This document shows positions 10 through 9,734 of a stretch of DNA of 14,394 bases, one piece after another. The translations under genes were made by a program, and so were the position numbers. The DNA is taken from the NCBI GenBank assembly GCA_018333395.1, contig JAGXSQ010000161.1, positions 1 to 14,394 of the forward strand, given 5' to 3'. The notes below the pieces were generated by a model that was given only the letters and a program-made list of their open reading frames with translations, searched no databases and was not told the DNA's origin. This stretch comes from Dethiobacter sp. (lineage in GTDB: Bacteria > Bacillota_D > Dethiobacteria > Dethiobacterales > Dethiobacteraceae). Position 1 is the first letter of the stretch, and every line of letters starts with the position of its first letter.

Positions 10-474
10 CTACGGCCTGGTAATCGTGGCAGTACCGCCTGGGCCCAGGCCGTTAGGCGTAGCCCAGGAGAAGCTGGGGTGAAGAACAGGAGCGGTACCA
101 AAGGCAGTTCCCGTTGCTGTATAGCGCTCGTTATAAGGGAGACGACCAACGAGTCCAGCCGGCACTGCGGGCAGCGTGCCAAAGAAAGCTCCGAAGGTTC
201 CCGCAGCAGTTGCAATCATATCCGCCCGGGTCGGATACCCTAGCCGCGGGCCGGTGGCGGTAACCTCCAGGTAGTACGCTTCCAAAGCGTTTAGAATCAT
301 GCGTTCGTTAGCGATATCCGCCGCGATGCGCGCCGACTGGATATTTTGCGTCACGCGCGGTACGGCGATGCCCGCCAGGATGCCAAGGATGGCCACCACG
401 ACCAAGAGTTCCACCAGGGTAAAGCCGCGCCTGTCGCGGCGGCACCGCTGCAGTAAACTAGCAATTTTCAACAT
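10..474 (-). CDS. Type IV prepilin (major-pilin-like), 154 aa
   Basis: This is a prepilin, probably the structural subunit of the pilus built by the upstream pilBTC genes. A 17-residue basic leader ends in RRG and is followed by FTLVELLVVVAILGILAG, the type III signal that prepilin peptidase cuts after Gly17. Mature Glu5 (residue 22) is present and the hydrophobic stretch forms the N-terminal helix. The C-terminal half is rich in Gly, Thr, Ala and Pro and has no Cys pair. I chose the ATG at 474 because it gives a normal leader and has a Shine-Dalgarno-like AAGGGAG 9 nt upstream. The frame stays open to a GTG at 690, but that would add 72 residues of low-complexity translation. Expression is probably set by the cyclic-di-GMP riboswitch and terminator at 861-998. 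Whether it is the major or a minor pilin cannot be told. No prepilin peptidase gene is in view. Confidence 0.93.
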   Translation of the reverse strand: MLKIASLLQRCRRDRRGFTLVELLVVVAILGILAGIAVPRVTQNIQSARIAADIANERMILNALEAYYLEVTATGPRLGYPTRADMIATAAGTFGAFFGTLPAVPAGLVGRLPYNERYTATGTAFGTAPVLHPSFSWATPNGLGPGGTATITRP

Positions 475-500
475 TTTCTTCCACTCCCTTAATAAATTTC

Positions 501-520
501 GACCTGTACAGACCTGTACA
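501..520. repeat. Perfect tandem 10-mer, two copies, in the pilin leader
   Basis: The plus strand reads GACCTGTACA twice in immediate succession. Each copy contains the palindrome TGTACA. The repeat starts about 27 nt upstream of the prepilin ATG, just outside the Shine-Dalgarno region. It could be an operator, an RNA element or chance duplication. No function is established. Confidence 0.6.
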
Positions 521-603
521 GTAGGACTGCTAAAGCGATACGAATATTGGGTGCATTTCTCTCTGGTAAAAACTTCCTCTGATTTTGTTTCCCAGGAAAT
601 ATT

Positions 604-649
604 TCCTGCCTGACCGTTGCAGACAGGCCCGCCTGCCGGACAGGCAGGC
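604..649. repeat. Palindromic repeat pair in the pilin leader (copy A)
   Basis: Two adjacent imperfect palindromes lie here. The first runs from CCTGCCTG to CAGACAGG (604-627). The second is GCCTGCCGGACAGGCAGGC at 631-649, a 7-bp stem with a 5-nt loop, followed on the plus strand by TTTTT. The 19-mer matches one inside pilC (2690-2708) at 18 of 19 positions, which suggests a dispersed repeat family. A 14-bp perfect palindrome, AGGAAATATTTCCT, lies next to it at about 594-607. In the leader RNA these would fold as strong hairpins. Confidence 0.65.
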
Positions 650-794
650 TTTTTAGATTTTTGCGGTTTCTTTCTCGACCCTCCTCTCACCGATTATTTC
701 TACTTGTTGTTTTCATTCCCACCGGCAAAAACATTCGCCTTTGTTTACCTTTTTCCTGCTGTTTTTCCTTTTATCTTTCTTCCGGCCCGCAGCG

Positions 795-822
795 CCTGTC
801 TGCCGGCCGGGCAGAGGCAGGT
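795..822. repeat. Imperfect palindrome related to copies A and B (copy C)
   Basis: CCTGTCTGCC is followed after GGCCG by GGCAGAGGCAGG, an imperfect inverted repeat. It shares CCTGTCTGCC and the AGAGGCA motif with the copy inside pilC at 2678-2716, so it looks like a diverged member of the same family. It lies in the leader between the riboswitch terminator and the pilin gene. Confidence 0.5.
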
Positions 823-860
823 CGGCAAATTGCGCGTTGCCGCCCCCAATTTTGTACAGC

Positions 861-886
861 AAAAGGCTTCAGCCTAAGCTGAAGCC
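861..886 (-). terminator. Intrinsic terminator just after the riboswitch
   Basis: On the minus strand GGCTTCAGC and GCTGAAGCC form a perfect 9-bp stem around the loop TTAG, followed at once by TTTT. It begins 21 nt after the 3' end of the cyclic-di-GMP aptamer and lies upstream of the prepilin. This is the layout of a riboswitch expression platform acting by transcription termination. Whether ligand promotes or prevents termination cannot be read with confidence, because I could not define the competing antiterminator. Confidence 0.85.
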
Positions 887-907
887 CTATAAAACAAACT
901 CCTGCTC

Positions 908-998
908 TTCGGCGGCCCGGCTGTCAATAGGCTCACGGCCCTTAGACCCGCAGCTTTGCGTCCCAGCCTTTCGGCAGGTTAGCCCTTTTCGGTTCAGA
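908..998 (-). ncRNA. Cyclic-di-GMP-I riboswitch (GEMM-I aptamer)
   Basis: The minus strand carries the conserved core of GEMM-I in order. First comes AGGGCTAACC, then the hairpin CCTGCCGAAAGGCTGG with a GAAA tetraloop. Next is the near-invariant GGGACGCAAAGC, then GGGTCTAAGG, a short variable stem, and ATTGACAGCCGGGCCGCCG. This matches the Vc2 aptamer of Vibrio cholerae and clostridial examples element by element: GNRA loop, tetraloop receptor region and ligand-binding junction. The basal P1 pairing is less clear by eye, so the ends are approximate. A sigma-A-like promoter lies just upstream, a terminator just downstream, and the first downstream gene is the prepilin. The RNA therefore probably links pilin transcription to cellular cyclic-di-GMP. 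Confidence 0.93.
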
Positions 999-1037
999 TT
1001 CCCAGGCAATTTTCTCATTTATTGTTACTTTGCCATT

Positions 1038-1066
1038 AGTTTACAGCAAACGACAGATTTCGTCAA
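1038..1066 (-). promoter_or_regulatory. Sigma-A-like promoter of the riboswitch-prepilin transcript
   Basis: TTGACG (1061-1066) and TAAACT (1038-1043) are separated by exactly 17 bp on the minus strand, matching the -35 box at 5 of 6 and the -10 box at 4 of 6 positions. Transcription would start near 1030, about 30 nt before the riboswitch aptamer. An inverted repeat, GCCATT at 1032-1037 and AATGGC at 1065-1070, brackets the promoter and could be an operator, though this is not shown. Confidence 0.65.
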
Positions 1067-1183
1067 TGGCGAAATAAGCTGAAAATCAGCAGCAAAAGGC
1101 AAGTAAACCAAAATATCTCTGCCCTGCTCCGCAAACGGTCTGTTCTCCAGATAATCCATGCTATTCCTGCCATCTGTGAATCC

Positions 1184-1594
1184 TTACTTCAGTCTGCGCA
1201 TAATAAGCTCGTCGTAACTGGCTACTTCCGTCTCAATTCGGTCCAGCTTTTCTGAATTCAGTTGGTAACCGTCTAATAAAGCCTTTATCTTGGGGCCATG
1301 GTCAGTTTCGATTTTTACAACGGTCTTCTCCACAAAAGACATTCTCTCTTCTACTAAAGACAGCCGTGCCTCCACTAAAGACAGCCGCTCAGCCACAAAA
1401 GAAAGACGTACTTCCACAGAAGACAGCCGCTCATCAACCGTCAAAAGCTTTTCATTAACGGTCCTGAATCCTTCTTGCATTTCATTGTACATCTTCTCCT
1501 GGCTGCTCTTCAGGTCATTGTACATCTTCTCCTGGCTGCCCTTCAGGTCAGTGTACATCCTGGTCATAAGCTCCAGGATTTTTTCATTCTCCAC
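1184..1594 (-). CDS. Heptad-repeat coiled-coil protein of the pilus operon, 136 aa
   Basis: This small cytoplasmic-looking protein has no signal peptide or membrane segment and is almost entirely coiled coil. Residues about 12-43 are three 11-residue repeats beginning MYTDLK, MYNDLK and MYNEMQ. They are followed by about eight near-perfect heptads of the form xVEERLS (TVNEKLL, TVDERLS, SVEVRLS, FVAERLS, LVEARLS and so on). The tail contains IETDHGPKIKALLDGY and resembles a family of uncharacterised Firmicute proteins with the same IExDHG...LxDGY ending; that is from memory and was not searched. It starts at a GTG with GGGAGG upstream, 23 nt after the pilC stop, so it is probably cotranscribed with pilBTC. 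A role in pilus assembly is inferred only from position. Confidence 0.8.
   Translation of the reverse strand: MENEKILELMTRMYTDLKGSQEKMYNDLKSSQEKMYNEMQEGFRTVNEKLLTVDERLSSVEVRLSFVAERLSLVEARLSLVEERMSFVEKTVVKIETDHGPKIKALLDGYQLNSEKLDRIETEVASYDELIMRRLK
1484..1549. repeat. Two 33-bp direct repeats within the coiled-coil gene
   Basis: Positions 1484-1516 and 1517-1549 are 33-bp units differing at one base, with a partial third copy from 1550. They encode the 11-residue MYxDLKxSQEK repeats. The near identity at DNA level points to recent duplication. The heptad region next to it (about 1320-1450) is also repetitive in 21-bp steps. Confidence 0.85.
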
Positions 1595-1617
1595 GCGGTG
1601 CCGCCTCCCAAAAAGGG

Positions 1618-2916
1618 TTACTGGATATGTTGAAAGATTTCAAACATGGGCGTGACGATGGCTACCACGATGGTGCCGACAATGATAGCCACGCCAAGAA
1701 TCAGGATGGGCTCGATGACCGCGCTCAGGCGGGAGACGGCGTAGGCCACGTCCGCCTCGTAAAAGTCAGCCACTTTTCCCATCATGGTGTCAATGGCGCC
1801 GGTTTCCTCACCGATTTTCAGCATCTCGGTCAGCATGGGCGGGAAGATGGCACTCGCCCGCAGCGGCGCCGCCATACTTTGGCCCTGGCGGATGCCGGTG
1901 GCCGACTTGGCTATGGCCTCCTCCACTACTTTATTGCCGGAAACCCGCCCGACCAGGAGCAAGGCGGGCAACACGCCGACACCGGAGGCCAGCAGCGTGG
2001 CCAGCGTGCGGGAAAAACGGGCAAAGACCACTTTCTGGTAAAGCGGGCCGAAGACCGGCAGCCTCATTTTCAGCCGGTCCAGGGAGTAGGCGCCGCGGGT
2101 GGTGCGGACGTAACGGCGCAAAGCCAGTACCAGCAGCACCAGACCTAGAAAAATAAAGGGCCACCACTGTTGCGCGCCGGTGCCAAGCGACATCAGGAGC
2201 CTCGTAATCAAGGGCAACTCGGCGCCCATACCGGCGAACATCTGGGCAAACATAGGCAGGACACGGATGATCAGGAAAGCTACCACCAGCAAGGCCACCA
2301 CCATGATTACCGCAGGGTAGGTGGAAGCCGACTTGACCTTTTCCCGCAGGTCGTGTTCTTTCTCAAAGTAGTCGGCCAGCCGTTTCAATGTTACGTCCAG
2401 CGAGCCGCTAATTTCCCCGGCCTCCACCATATGGACTAAAATGCGCGGAAAAAACGGGCTGTGTTCGACAAAAGCCTCCGCTAGGCCGCTACCTTTCTCA
2501 AGGGCGGTGATAACTTCCTGTACCTTTTGCGCCAAGCTTTTGGGCCGCGTCTGAGCGGCGAGGATTTTCAGGGCGGCAAGTACTGTCATGCCCGCTTCCA
2601 CAGCTGTGGCAAATTGGCGGCAGAAAACCATCAGGTCACGGGAATTAGGCTTTTTGTCACGAACAGTAAACAGCGAACCTGTCTGCCCTGCCTGCCGGTC
2701 AGGCAGGCGGAGAGGCAAGCGGCGTACCGCAAGCGCTACCGGTGCTCTGCTTTTGCCGGCCGGCCGCGCGGAGAGGCCGGCCTCCCTGATGCTGACAATA
2801 TAAAGCCCGCTCTCGCGCAGTTCCTGCGCTGCCTGGTGCGGCGCCACTGCTGCCAGCTCACCGCTGATACTTTGTCCTTTGCCGTCCCTGGCCTGGTATT
2901 TGTAAAGCGGCGACAC
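1618..2916 (-). CDS. pilC: Type IV pilus inner-membrane platform protein PilC, 432 aa
   Basis: PilC is the polytopic membrane platform on which the PilB and PilT motors act. The N-terminus (MSPLYKYQARDGKGQ) is the usual short N-domain. Two T2SSF domains follow, the first from about residue 92 (SRDLMVFCRQFATAVEAGM) and the second from about residue 290 (FSRTLATLLASGVGVLPAL). Hydrophobic segments lie near 205-225 and 255-270 and at the C-terminus (ILGVAIIVGTIVVAIVTPMF). It starts at a GTG with AGGAGG 6 nt upstream and lies 27 nt after pilT. It is somewhat longer than the common ~400 residues. The extra length is in the linker before the first T2SSF domain, where residues about 70-76 (LPDRQAG) are encoded by a palindromic repeat that also occurs in the pilin leader. 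Confidence 0.95.
   Translation of the reverse strand: MSPLYKYQARDGKGQSISGELAAVAPHQAAQELRESGLYIVSIREAGLSARPAGKSRAPVALAVRRLPLRLPDRQAGQTGSLFTVRDKKPNSRDLMVFCRQFATAVEAGMTVLAALKILAAQTRPKSLAQKVQEVITALEKGSGLAEAFVEHSPFFPRILVHMVEAGEISGSLDVTLKRLADYFEKEHDLREKVKSASTYPAVIMVVALLVVAFLIIRVLPMFAQMFAGMGAELPLITRLLMSLGTGAQQWWPFIFLGLVLLVLALRRYVRTTRGAYSLDRLKMRLPVFGPLYQKVVFARFSRTLATLLASGVGVLPALLLVGRVSGNKVVEEAIAKSATGIRQGQSMAAPLRASAIFPPMLTEMLKIGEETGAIDTMMGKVADFYEADVAYAVSRLSAVIEPILILGVAIIVGTIVVAIVTPMFEIFQHIQ
2678..2716. repeat. Palindromic repeat inserted in frame in pilC (copy B)
   Basis: The core GCCTGCCGGTCAGGCAGGC at 2690-2708 differs at one of 19 bases from the copy at 631-649. Flanks CCTGTCTGCC and GGAGAGGCA resemble copy C at 795-822. 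It keeps the pilC frame open and lies in the variable linker, where an insertion should be tolerated. This resembles the known behaviour of palindromic elements that insert into coding sequence. Confidence 0.7.
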
Positions 2917-2943
2917 TTTTTCCCTCCTCTCTTCGACCTCTGC

Positions 2944-4017
2944 TTAATGTCTTACTTCCAGTTCGCGGAGCATGCTTTCCGGGTCGATAGCATAATTTAA
3001 GGCATCTTCATAGCTGATTTTCCCTTCCCGGTACAGGGTGCGCAAAGAAGAGTCCATCGTTTGCATGCCAAACCTGGCACCGGTTTGCATGGCGGAGTAA
3101 ATCTGGTGCGTCTTGCCTTCGCGGATCAGGTTGCGCACGGCTGGAGTTACCACCATCAATTCGGTGGCGGCAATCCGGCCCTCTTTTTCGCGCAGGCGGA
3201 GAAGTTGCTGGGAAAGGACGCCAATCAGCGAGTTGGATAGCTGTACTTTGATTTGCTGCTGCTGGTGGGGTGGGAAAATATCAATAATGCGGTCTATCGT
3301 CTGCGGCGCATTGATAGTGTGTAGAGTAGCCATCACTAAGTGGCCGGTCTCGGCGGCGGTAATGGCAATACCTATCGTTTCTAGGTCGCGCATCTCCCCT
3401 ACTAGGATAACGTCTGGGTCTTGCCGCAGCGCCGCGCGTAACGCGTTGGCAAAAGAGTGGCTGTCAGCGCCGATTTCCCGCTGGTTGACGATGCTCTTCT
3501 GGTGGGAATGCAGGTATTCGATGGGATCTTCCAGCGTCAGGATATGACAGGAGCGATTTCTGTTGACCATATCGAGCATGGCAGCCAAAGTAGTCGATTT
3601 TCCGCTGCCGGTAGGCCCTGTTACCAAGAACAGCCCCTTAGTGCGCTTGGTGAAAGAGTCAAGTACTGAGGGCATATTGAGCTTCTCCAAGGAGGGGATG
3701 TTGCCTGAGATGGCGCGCAACGCCATACCGACAGAGCCGCGCTGGCGGTAGACGTTGACTCGGTAGCGGCCTATACCGGCTATCCCTATAGAAAAGTCAA
3801 TCTCGCCTCGCTCAGTAAACAGCGCCCACTGGCGCTCGCTTAAAATCTGTTTCGCCATTGCCTCTGTGTCGTCCGGCATCAGGGGCGGGTATTCTAGGCG
3901 TATCAACTCGCCGTGCAAGCGGATGATGGGCGGCACACGCACGGAAATATGTAAGTCAGAGGCTTTCTTTTCGGAAACTTGAGCCATCAGTTCACTGATG
4001 GTTGGCAGTTTGCTCAT
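2944..4017 (-). CDS. pilT: Twitching/retraction ATPase PilT, 357 aa
   Basis: PilT is the hexameric cytoplasmic ATPase that powers pilus retraction. All the family motifs are present: Walker A GPTGSGKS (134-141), Asp box TLEDPIEYLH (161-170), Walker B DPDVILVGEMRD (200-211), His box TGHLVMATLHT (224-234), and the retraction-specific AVRNLIRE (293-300, usually AIRNLIRE). Length is normal. The ATG at 4017 is preceded by GAGGGGGT, which lies inside the last codons of pilB. The pilB stop is only 3 nt upstream, so translation is probably coupled. Together with pilB it implies pili that both extend and retract. Confidence 0.97.
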   Translation of the reverse strand: MSKLPTISELMAQVSEKKASDLHISVRVPPIIRLHGELIRLEYPPLMPDDTEAMAKQILSERQWALFTERGEIDFSIGIAGIGRYRVNVYRQRGSVGMALRAISGNIPSLEKLNMPSVLDSFTKRTKGLFLVTGPTGSGKSTTLAAMLDMVNRNRSCHILTLEDPIEYLHSHQKSIVNQREIGADSHSFANALRAALRQDPDVILVGEMRDLETIGIAITAAETGHLVMATLHTINAPQTIDRIIDIFPPHQQQQIKVQLSNSLIGVLSQQLLRLREKEGRIAATELMVVTPAVRNLIREGKTHQIYSAMQTGARFGMQTMDSSLRTLYREGKISYEDALNYAIDPESMLRELEVRH

Positions 4018-4020
4018 TAT

Positions 4021-5706
4021 TTATACCCCCTCAAAGACTACCCTGATGACCTCGCTGATACTGGTGACGCCTTCGCTAACAAGCCGCATCCCTTCCTCCT
4101 GCAGAGTTACCATCCCGGCGCGCAAGGCCCCCTGCTTGATGTCTTCCATGGACGCCTTGTTGATAATCAGGGAGCGCAAGTCGTTGTTTAAGGCTAGTAC
4201 CTCGTGGATGGCGGTGCGGCCGCGGTAGCCGCTCTCCTTACATTCCTTGCAGCCCTTGCCCTGATAAAAGACCGGCAGATCATGGCTGGTGCCGTAGTGG
4301 TTGTAAAGGCTAAGCTCCTGAGGCGTAGGCGTGTATTCAGCCTTGCAAGAGAGGCAAAGCTTGCGGAGCAGCCGCTGGGCCACGATGCAGACCACAGAGG
4401 AGGCGATCAAGAACGGTTCGATGCCCATTTCGGCAAGGCGGGGAAGAGCGCGGGGTGCATCGTTGGTGTGTAGTGTGGAAAAGACCTGATGGCCTGTCAA
4501 AGCGGCGCGGATGGCGATTTCCGCCGTTTCGCCGTCACGTATTTCCCCCACCATGATAATATCCGGGTCTTGACGGAGAATGGAGCGCAACGCCGCGGCA
4601 AAGGTCAGGCCGATTTTGGTGTTGACCTGCACCTGATTGATGCCGTCTAGGCGGAATTCCACCGGGTCTTCCACGGCAATGGCGTTTTTTTCCGCCGTCG
4701 CGATGGCGTTTAGCGATGAATAGAGGGTAGTTGTCTTGCCGCTACCGGTCGGTCCCGTCACCAGGATCATGCCGTAAGCCGCCCGCAGGCAGGAACGGAA
4801 AATCGCTTCATTGTGAGGTGAGAACCCGAGCTGTTCCACAGGCATCAGCATTTTGGCCTTGTCCAGCACGCGCAGCACTACTTTTTCGCCCTGCATCGTC
4901 GGCAGCGAAGAAACCCTGATATTGATGGGCCGCCCCTCCGCTTGCAGGGAGAAACGGCCGTCCTGTGGCAGGCGGCGCTCCGCGATGTTCATGCCGGAAA
5001 TTATCTTGACCCGGGAAGTTATCAGGGCCTGCGTATTTTTGGGGGAAAGCATCACGTCGCGCAGGAAGCCGTCCACCCGCAACCGCACCTGCAGCCCGCC
5101 TTCACGCGGCTCCAGGTGGATGTCGCTCGCTCCCTCGCTAACGGCTTGTTGGATAACCGAGTTGACCACCTTGACAATCGGCGCGTCATCAACCATCGCC
5201 GCCAGGTTTTCCTGGTCGGCCAGGTCCTTTTCCGTATCATCAAGTTGAAGCGCCGCCTCAGCAGACTCCTTAAGGCCAAAAACCTGGTCTATGGTCTGCC
5301 GGATAATACTCTCCCTGGCGATGACCGGCTCCACCTCAGCACCTGTTAACAACGCCACATCGTCCATAGCCAGGATATTGAGCGGGTCGGCCATAGCCAG
5401 GACAATTTTTTCCCCTTTGCGGCGCAGCGGTAGAACAGCGTGTCGCTTGGCCAGATAGGCAGGGATAGCGTAAGCTACCTCCGGGTCCACCATGGCCGGA
5501 TTTAACTGCACGGAAAGGATGCCCAGCTGCTCAGCCAACAGGGCAATGATCTGGTTTTCCGTAACCAGACCCTTGTCCACCAGAATCTTACCGAGCCGTT
5601 CCCGCTTGCGCCCCTGTTCAAGTAGTGTCTCTTCCAGCTGCTGTGCGGTAAGCAGACCCGCCTGCAGCAACATATCTCCCAGCCTGCGCCGTTGCCGTTT
5701 AACCAT
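4021..5706 (-). CDS. pilB: Type IV pilus extension ATPase PilB with MshEN cyclic-di-GMP domain, 561 aa
   Basis: PilB is the motor for pilus extension. Residues 8-62 form an MshEN domain. RLG-x2-L-x3-G-x6-L-x3-L-x2-Q is matched exactly (RLGDMLLQAGLLTAQQLEET then LLEQ), with a second half RLGKILVDKGLVTENQIIAL. This motif binds cyclic-di-GMP in the MshE family. The core has Walker A GPTGSGKT (318-325), Asp box VEDPVEF, Walker B DPDIIMVGEIRD (380-391), a His box GHQVFSTLHT, and the zinc tetracysteine CLSC...CKEC (C451, C454, C486, C489). The start is the ATG at 5706, with only GGGGG upstream as a ribosome site. It heads pilB-pilT-pilC. The MshEN motif fits the cyclic-di-GMP riboswitch at 908-998, suggesting the same ligand acts on motor activity and pilin transcription. 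Binding is inferred from the motif. Confidence 0.97.
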   Translation of the reverse strand: MVKRQRRRLGDMLLQAGLLTAQQLEETLLEQGRKRERLGKILVDKGLVTENQIIALLAEQLGILSVQLNPAMVDPEVAYAIPAYLAKRHAVLPLRRKGEKIVLAMADPLNILAMDDVALLTGAEVEPVIARESIIRQTIDQVFGLKESAEAALQLDDTEKDLADQENLAAMVDDAPIVKVVNSVIQQAVSEGASDIHLEPREGGLQVRLRVDGFLRDVMLSPKNTQALITSRVKIISGMNIAERRLPQDGRFSLQAEGRPINIRVSSLPTMQGEKVVLRVLDKAKMLMPVEQLGFSPHNEAIFRSCLRAAYGMILVTGPTGSGKTTTLYSSLNAIATAEKNAIAVEDPVEFRLDGINQVQVNTKIGLTFAAALRSILRQDPDIIMVGEIRDGETAEIAIRAALTGHQVFSTLHTNDAPRALPRLAEMGIEPFLIASSVVCIVAQRLLRKLCLSCKAEYTPTPQELSLYNHYGTSHDLPVFYQGKGCKECKESGYRGRTAIHEVLALNNDLRSLIINKASMEDIKQGALRAGMVTLQEEGMRLVSEGVTSISEVIRVVFEGV

Positions 5707-8873: not shown

Positions 8874-9734
8874 ATGATGCTCTGCTCCAAGAGCAAGATC
8901 GTGATTGTGGACGACTCTCCCCTGTTTCGCACCTATCTAAAGGGCCTACTGGCTAGCCAGTACGACTTGGAACTGATTGAAATCAACACTGCCCAAGAAC
9001 TTCATTCCTACCTCAGAAATGCTAACATCCAGGATATCGCCTTGGTGCTGCTGGATCTGAACCTGCCGGACGGTAACGGCATAGAGGTCATCCAAAAAAT
9101 GAAAGAGAGCCCGGCTACCCGCGACTTGGCCGTTATCATTGTCAGTACCTACATCGACAAAGACACAGCGCTGCTGGCCATCAAAACGGGCGCCCAGGAT
9201 CTGGTCGTCAAGCCTTTTAAAGCCGAGGAACTCCTAGAGAGCATTGACAAGCTATTTTCCTCCGCACCGCTTGTCCAGCAGATTTACCTGCGCGACCAGA
9301 AAGAGGTCAAGGACTACTACCAGCAGATTAACACAGAAATCAAACGGGCCAGACGCGCCAACTACCAGCTGACGTTGCTCATGACAGGCTTTTTCCGTAA
9401 TGGCTCTCTCGATTCCCCGACTCGCGGTGATGACTGCCGCCAAAATATTGCTCTCGGCAGCGCGTTTCTGCAACTTCTGCGGGAAAGCCTACGGGAAACC
9501 GATTCTGTCTTCTCTCTCTCGACCCACGAGTACCTGCTGATCCTGCCCTTTACCTCCGCTCAAGGGACAGCCACTGTTCTGGAGAATATGGAGCAGTCTT
9601 TTGCCAAAACGCTGCAGCACAAAGGCTGTGTCGCCATGAAGATGCTGACTGCGATGGTATCTTATCCCTCTGATGGAGGAGACTTCCGGGAAATAATCGC
9701 CAAACTGGAAGCGCGGTACAAAGAACAGCTGTAA
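8874..9734 (+). CDS. Response regulator: receiver plus degenerate GGDEF-like domain, 286 aa
   Basis: The receiver domain covers about residues 8-127, with acidic pair D13-D14, phospho-acceptor D61 (LLDLNLPDG), S91 and K113 (VKPF). The C-terminal part (about 150-286) follows the GGDEF fold by its flanking motifs: KRARRANYQLTLLM, then LRETDSVFSLSTHEYLLILP, then YPSDGGDFREIIAKLEARY. The GGDEF signature itself is replaced by STHEY, so it should not make cyclic-di-GMP and may bind a nucleotide or act only as a protein-interaction domain. GGGAGG precedes two consecutive ATGs at 8874 and 8877; either may be used. It is the only plus-strand gene, divergent from yqeG, and ends 6 bp from the end of sigK. 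No partner kinase is in view. Confidence 0.9.
   Translation: MMLCSKSKIVIVDDSPLFRTYLKGLLASQYDLELIEINTAQELHSYLRNANIQDIALVLLDLNLPDGNGIEVIQKMKESPATRDLAVIIVSTYIDKDTALLAIKTGAQDLVVKPFKAEELLESIDKLFSSAPLVQQIYLRDQKEVKDYYQQINTEIKRARRANYQLTLLMTGFFRNGSLDSPTRGDDCRQNIALGSAFLQLLRESLRETDSVFSLSTHEYLLILPFTSAQGTATVLENMEQSFAKTLQHKGCVAMKMLTAMVSYPSDGGDFREIIAKLEARYKEQL

Follow-up and report, generated by a model that had tools for sequence, protein, structure and literature searches.

The stretch of DNA analysed here, 14,394 nucleotides (nt) of contig JAGXSQ010000161.1 from Dethiobacter sp. (the window), encodes a type IV pilus locus in which cyclic di-GMP (c-di-GMP) may be read twice, by a class I c-di-GMP (c-di-GMP-I) riboswitch ahead of the prepilin gene and by an MshEN domain at the N terminus of the extension ATPase PilB. 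We consider it probable that the riboswitch is an OFF switch on the prepilin and the genes that follow, while the MshEN domain of PilB binds the same signal and favours extension. That two c-di-GMP-sensing layers share one pilus locus, as the original prediction held, is supported by the sequence, and the closest relative keeps both. The further proposal that they form a feed-forward design of one sign is not supported, as the terminator is separate from the aptamer and the antiterminator takes the ligand-binding strand in 12 of 13 platform relatives, and we regard it as likely wrong in sign. Rather, c-di-GMP would likely engage the motor and at the same time cut back pilin production, together with that of PilD, the minor pilins and PilM if the relative is a guide, an opposed wiring that is predicted because the riboswitch layout is OFF and MshEN favours extension in Vibrio cholerae.

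The closest locus found (L001) lies in genome G001, a metagenome-assembled genome (MAG) of Bacillota bacterium HKB214 (QLUR01000011.1). Its PilB is 88% identical to that of the window and its pil gene order is the same. The features on which the argument rests are listed below.

4021..5706, minus: pilB, extension ATPase with MshEN domain (Pfam T2SSE 455.8 bits, MshEN PF05157 65.6 bits)
5527..5685, minus: tandem MshEN c-di-GMP motif of 53 residues, PilB residues 8-60, from motif count and PDB matches
2944..4017, minus: pilT, retraction ATPase (T2SSE 170.6 bits; assigned as pilT and not pilB by reading)
1618..2916, minus: pilC platform protein (T2SSF 195.6 bits)
1038..1066, minus: sigma-70-like promoter TTGACG-17-TAAACT, 9 of 12 consensus matches; 23 of 29 positions (79%) identical to the relative at -35/-10
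991..998, minus: 5' flank strand, which may pair with 904-901 (outer P1, weak) or, ligand-free, with the terminator 5' arm
907..993, minus: c-di-GMP-I riboswitch aptamer (G20 = 984, A47 = 957, C92 = 912)
872..913, minus: candidate antiterminator hairpin GCCGAAG...CUUAGGC, taking C912 (C92) and the terminator 5' arm
864..887, minus: terminator hairpin, arms 887-878 and 873-864, U tract 864-861
10..474, minus: prepilin (pilA-like), first gene past the riboswitch (N_methyl 41.2 bits, ATG at 474, counterpart in the relative)

The genes pilB, pilT and pilC all lie upstream of the riboswitch. The leader before the prepilin is about 710 nt long, and the prepilin ATG stands 386 nt past the U tract. 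The window ends just past the prepilin, and the extent of the controlled genes is taken from the relative, where the order past the riboswitch is prepilin, PilD-type peptidase (A24), two minor pilins, a PilX_N protein (a match below cut-off), PilM and, at the PilN position, a LysM protein. By this gene order the riboswitch would gate the distal half of the locus only, which in the relative comprises pilA, pilD, the minor pilins and pilM.

The aptamer and its ligand positions

A cmscan of the window returned c-di-GMP-I-GGC (RF03167) at 907-993 on the minus strand (67.0 bits, gathering threshold 59; E 2.6e-14). Once clan competition had removed two overlapping matches of that clan, Rfam had no other match in the window at E<=1. 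The window score is known for RF03167, and the score for c-di-GMP-I itself (RF01051) comes from the orthologous site of the relative, at which RF01051 reaches 74.1 bits (gathering 35) and RF03167 66.6 bits. The GEMM-I aptamer claimed earlier is thereby borne out, with the RF01051 assignment holding at the relative's site, and its coordinates were correct.

Positions G20, A47 and C92 were assigned by Vc2 numbering. By this count 984 is G, 957 is A and 912, counted by hand, is C. For comparison across the relative's order, 68 c-di-GMP-I hits in 19 genomes were collected and 66 of them fetched, leaving out the two lowest-scoring (on two G004 contigs). Among the 41 of these 66 that were aligned, A47 is invariant (41 of 41) and G20 is present in 38. 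The name of the GGC variant presumably denotes a G at the A47 position; the RF03167 consensus there is CGCGAAgC and the window reads CGCAAAGC, with A in that place, and the GGC-variant identity was dropped. A supposed ligand difference between the window and its relative was dropped as well: position 20 had been miscounted as the base before GGC, and the Vc2 count gives G20 in both. Because G20, A47 and C92 are in place and RF01051 scores higher at the relative's site, we file the aptamer as canonical c-di-GMP-I, predicted from these positions to bind c-di-GMP. The role of G20 and the ligand-pairing cytosine are stated in the available part of PMC9262584.

The three aptamers without G20 carry A20 (L184, L212 and L230). 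Of these A20 c-di-GMP-I-like aptamers, that of G015 (L212/L238) stands directly before an MshEN pilB and that of G001 (L230) before a gene labelled by regular expression as TasA/camelysin-like; by sequence, their ligand specificity may be different. The relative's genome has 11 GGDEF matches, nine of them over cut-off, so c-di-GMP is likely made there.

Promoter, terminator and conservation of the leader

The original prediction gave the aptamer its own promoter and terminator. Both were found, the former as TTGACG-17-TAAACT at 1066-1038; the region 400-1300 holds two promoter-like sites against a shuffle mean of 1.0, so the promoter is statistically weak by itself. The terminator is a 10-base-pair hairpin at 887-864 with a folding energy of -16.7 to -18.5 kcal/mol, depending on the cut, and the stem changes seen in the relative preserve its pairing. 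It was absent from a simple terminator scan of the window, probably because of the short U tract. The hairpin begins 20 nt past the aptamer, includes no aptamer strand and is compatible with a folded aptamer.

Comparison of the window with the relative sets this element apart. Identity is 79 of 131 positions upstream of the promoter and 15 of 39 between promoter and aptamer, rises to 88 of 92 (96%) over the aptamer (998-907) and 19 of 19 over the linker (906-888), and stays at 23 of 27 (85%) over the terminator, where two changes fall in the loop and two in the stem with pairing preserved. Past the terminator the leader falls to 91 of 177 and then 105 of 244, before the start site (21 of 25, 84%). 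From these values the longest constrained element is the aptamer, linker and terminator together.

Competing folds and the predicted sign

The sign of a riboswitch can be read from how its terminator relates to its aptamer. The available part of PMC9262584 describes both arrangements. In Cd1, an OFF switch, terminator and aptamer can coexist, and it is the antiterminator that sequesters the aptamer 3' strand; in the pilM switch, which is ON, that strand is built into the terminator. Of 72 riboswitches put through an automatic terminator finder, several (e.g. L173) yielded long hairpins of no use, so sign was read case by case; the aptamer-overlapping hairpin that it placed in the relative's prepilin leader (L214), which would read ON, was rejected since its fold is the antiterminator. 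No sign was assigned to L282, L283, L285, L287, L288, L238 or L010.

Twelve of the 66 riboswitches, chosen by eye, share the platform of the window, GCCGAAGAGC(A)GGAGUUUU...CUUCAGC-loop-GCUGAAG. A model of this platform (R2) run on the relative's class of 97 genomes recovered the same 12 at 130-173 bits, with the next among the matches listed at 105. Labelled by regular expression, the genes past the 12 are one flgB operon (L200), the relative's prepilin (L214), six secreted transglutaminase-like proteins and four unlabelled genes; the six belong to L173-L198, a family of c-di-GMP-I riboswitches in the order of G001 that have their expression platform in common, and the label of L174 was confirmed by PF01841.

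For folding, the segment running from G91 up to where the terminator 3' arm begins was excised. G91-C92-C93 paired to GGC in 13 of 13 members (the 12 and the window), at -12.9 to -18.4 kcal/mol, and 0-5 of 200 dinucleotide shuffles reached such a fold across the 13 (window -13.4 kcal/mol, 5 of 200; relative -17.8 kcal/mol, 1 of 200); the fold is branched inside in L187 and one hairpin in the other members. With the whole leader and an incomplete 3' arm, C92 lay in the antiterminator helix at a probability of at least 0.94 in 12 of 13 members, including the relative (0.99), whether the aptamer core was forced or not. In an alignment of 12 sequences (A4), 91.5% of 177 antiterminator cells pair, as against 18.5-53.8% when the helix is slid. 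The terminator covaries, its score being reached by 0 of 500 shuffles, and L200 has two paired both-side changes in the inner helix, identified by eye. Forcing P1 in the window brings the terminator forward, to 0.60 versus 0.00 at 3' end 868 and 0.88 versus 0.15 at 866.

Riboswitches on flagellar operons of the same order served as a calibration, the flgB operon of C. difficile being under a class I OFF switch according to the available part of PMC11477304. Twelve of the 16 flgB-labelled riboswitches were taken; seven have a simple terminator at +9 to +17, outside the aptamer, and five have no simple terminator. In those seven the competing fold takes part of the aptamer 3' end, and 6-31 of 200 shuffles reach it. 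An ON-like layout was seen in L013 (before pilB) and in L016 (before a prepilin, in an Omnitrophota MAG), the terminators of which begin 9 and 14 nt inside the aptamer.

Several results weigh against an OFF switch in the window. Its C912 hairpin is minor in the whole leader (0.17 unconstrained, 0.00 with the aptamer core forced), so its antiterminator step rests on the relatives; the 5' flank pairs the terminator arm instead (0.68 and 0.77). This flank pairing persists for 5' ends from 1031 to 1007, and the C92 pairing returns at 1000 or 996. The terminator also forms early in the unconstrained window (0.21 at 868, 0.86 at 866), and at full length it stands at 1.0 whether P1 is forced or not, so any switching would need to be kinetic. 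Outer P1 is weak in the window, with 321 of 400 shuffles as good, and its complementarity failed to beat shuffles in most platform members. Only four U follow the hairpin (five in the relative). Covariation of the antiterminator is slight, its score being reached by 49 of 500 shuffles, and the inner A:T hairpin alone was rejected as antiterminator, since 83 of 300 shuffles did as well in the window. The analyst chose the limits of the cut-out segments, in two cases by hand. Both GCCGAA and UUCG loops are widespread motifs, and the flgB competing fold includes C92 itself in only two of seven. We nonetheless predict an OFF switch in the window, because its terminator is separate, because of the folds of its platform relatives, and because P1 would undo either strand exchange.

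The motor layer

The MshEN motif consists of two stretches of RLGxx[LVI][LVI]xxG[LVI][LVI]xxxxLxxxLxxQ with a spacer of five residues, as given in the available part of PMC5013675. PilB of the window has both 24-residue motifs with a spacer of 5, and 21 of the 22 key positions fit, the exception being an L to I change; together with the Pfam score, this upholds, but for that one position, the full MshEN motif that had been claimed for it. Its first 144 residues match T. thermophilus PilF and the PilB structures 5zfr and 5tsg in the PDB, and its N terminus matches V. cholerae MshE (5htl, E 2.7e-17) and the c-di-GMP domain of PilF (8pdk, E 1.2e-10). The relative keeps 19 of 22 positions. MshEN is reported to favour extension in V. 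cholerae (MshE), according to part of a review, and by analogy the MshEN domain of PilB would likely bind c-di-GMP and favour extension. Two points count against this: the relative's PilB departs in motif I at R1K and at one hydrophobic position, and the same part of the review describes C. perfringens PilB2 as binding c-di-GMP with its ATPase rate unchanged. Whether the two layers share a sign was thus judged from a riboswitch branch predicted to be negative and a motor branch that is positive by analogy only.

Co-occurrence of the two layers

The pairing had been presented as novel, and this was overstated, for it recurs in five other loci with at least 19 of 22 MshEN positions (those of the closest relative, G015 and G087, and L010 and L013). 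Both layers at this level are thus found in the window, L001, L010, L013, L238 (G015, spacer 6) and L282. Among the best 80 PilB loci on genome contigs, a model (R1) placed c-di-GMP-I aptamers in at least six (L001, L010, L013, L016, L026 and L065), and the aptamer adjoins a pilus gene, with frames read, in at least four (L001, L010, L013 and L016); the flanks of these loci differ in length and the aptamer counts are lower bounds.

In the relative's class, 83 of the 97 genomes have PilB at E<=1e-60, 91 have a c-di-GMP-I hit at E<=1e-8, and at least 10 have such a hit within 6 kb of pilB among the matches listed. Nine regions were fetched from eight of these 10 genomes; in five (L282, L283, L285, L287 and L288) the riboswitch stands 137-194 nt before a prepilin-like frame (regular-expression label), and among these five only L282 keeps MshEN (21 of 22). 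The PilB motif is degenerate in L283, L285, L287 and L288, with 12, 13, 15 and 13 of 22 positions and a spacer of 10 (10-12 positions if spacers of 4-7 are allowed, 12-15 with spacers of 3-15). On these counts, pairing of riboswitch and MshEN is recurrent, not universal. No description of the two in one locus was found in the titles and abstract openings of open-licence literature. In L285, L286, L287 and L288, two to three c-di-GMP-I aptamers per pilus cluster stand before other genes as well as the prepilin.

Other features of the window

Three further genes border the features listed above.

1184..1594, minus: small coiled-coil-like protein between pilC and the riboswitch, with a positional counterpart in the relative
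7260-5827, minus: CBS-PAS-HD protein
8134-7253, minus: aroE-like gene, labelled by eye

The coiled-coil-like protein consists of short repeated units, 21 and 33 nt long in the window, and its counterpart in the relative, at 14053-14619, is longer (188 versus 136 residues). A response regulator at 8874-9734 on the plus strand, a few genes from the pilus locus, looks in its C-terminal part like a degenerate GGDEF domain (PF00990 18.2 bits, under the 23.8 cut-off). Palindromic elements of the CTGCCTGNCNGGCAGGC type have 17 matches in the window at up to three mismatches, with 1.2 expected. Twelve of the 17 fall in three clusters, at 627-649 and 796-816 in the pilin leader and at 2686-2710 inside pilC, which is 14 residues longer than that of the relative (432 versus 418).

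Discussion

In the model that we favour, the terminator 5' arm (887-878) would be held by another strand when c-di-GMP is low, allowing read-through into the pilin module. In the relative and the platform family the arm would be held by the aptamer 3' strand, C912 included; in the window this role would fall mostly to the 5' flank. On binding of c-di-GMP, both aptamer flanks would be locked in P1 and the binding pocket, hairpin 887-864 would form and transcription would stop before pilA; the motor genes, being upstream, would escape the switch. A rise in c-di-GMP would then engage PilB on the existing pool of pilin while resupply closes, giving a pulse of piliation or confining it to a limited window of c-di-GMP. 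The analysis shows the sequence matches, the state of the motifs, the conservation and the computed competing folds behind this course; the ligand, the sign, activation of the motor and the physiological outcome are inferred. We tentatively extend this to a fuller picture, in which the OFF riboswitch shuts the resupply of pilin, peptidase and minor pilins as MshEN engages the motor for a single burst or within a signal window, and in which a foreign OFF cassette may have inverted the sign of the pilus riboswitch. Such a cassette is conceivable because the platform family is otherwise labelled before transglutaminase-like and flagellar genes.

A coherent feed-forward, with the pilin riboswitch turned ON and PilB activated by the same c-di-GMP signal, would agree with the characterised pilus precedents, which are ON in the portions of their descriptions available (the class II riboswitch on the C. 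difficile pilin operon and Geobacter pilM), and with the pilus loci L013 and L016, where ON-like terminators are built partly of the aptamer 3' strand; that the window's own antiterminator is unclear in whole-leader folds also speaks for it. We hold it to be unlikely, as the window terminator includes no aptamer strand, 12 of 13 members of the platform family have an antiterminator in competition with the aptamer, and the layout with a separate terminator also serves flgB operons of this order. Still less probable is that hairpin 887-864 is a leaky terminator without ligand-dependent switching and the aptamer a relic. The short U tract and weak outer P1 would fit a relic, as would a P2 U-U mismatch and an A-to-U change at position 23 (both common to the relative) and a terminator that is complete at full length in every ensemble run, but the aptamer scores above the curated cut-off and, with its linker, is 96-100% identical to the relative's as against 38-51% in the surrounding leader.

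The layers might also read different signals, if the aptamer preferred another cyclic dinucleotide such as 3',3'-cyclic GMP-AMP (3',3'-cGAMP). The best Rfam E-value belongs to the variant family RF03167, and A20-type aptamers occur in the order, one of them before pilB in G015. Against this, the window and the relative both carry G20, A47 and C92, which we take to be the canonical c-di-GMP set, and we rate a different ligand as the least probable of these readings.

The opposed wiring that we prefer resembles several known systems in part. Like Cd1, which heads the flgB operon of Clostridioides difficile, the window has a class I aptamer with a terminator outside it and is predicted OFF; the Cd1-type antiterminator taking the aptamer 3' strand is seen in the relatives and less clearly in the window, and Cd1 controls flagella, not a prepilin. 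The pilin operon of C. difficile is likewise a Gram-positive type IV pilus operon headed by a c-di-GMP riboswitch, but in the available part of its description the aptamer is c-di-GMP-II and the sign ON. Geobacter metallireducens pilM shares a GEMM-I aptamer before a pilus gene and, in the portion of the source at hand, differs in its ligand, cGAMP, and in a terminator that contains aptamer strand and hence is ON. On the motor side, V. cholerae MshE, C. perfringens PilB2 and T. thermophilus PilF also have an N-terminal c-di-GMP domain on a pilus ATPase, and the PilB of the window has the tandem 24-residue motif of MshE nearly complete; the available portions of the MshE, PilB2 and PilF descriptions mention no riboswitch in the same locus.

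According to the sources available in part, one species has its type IV pili under a c-di-GMP riboswitch, and in other species the signal acts through MshEN. The parts are known already; their variant here is a well-conserved riboswitch, predicted to be of OFF type, that would serve the pilin half of the locus, beside a motor with a near-complete c-di-GMP motif. With six loci that have both layers and four that have the riboswitch beside a degenerate MshEN motif, the pairing can be studied as an evolutionary variable. Both sensors in one locus, with a predicted conflict of sign, would offer a clean two-input experiment on what sets the number of pili, the supply of pilin or the engagement of the motor.

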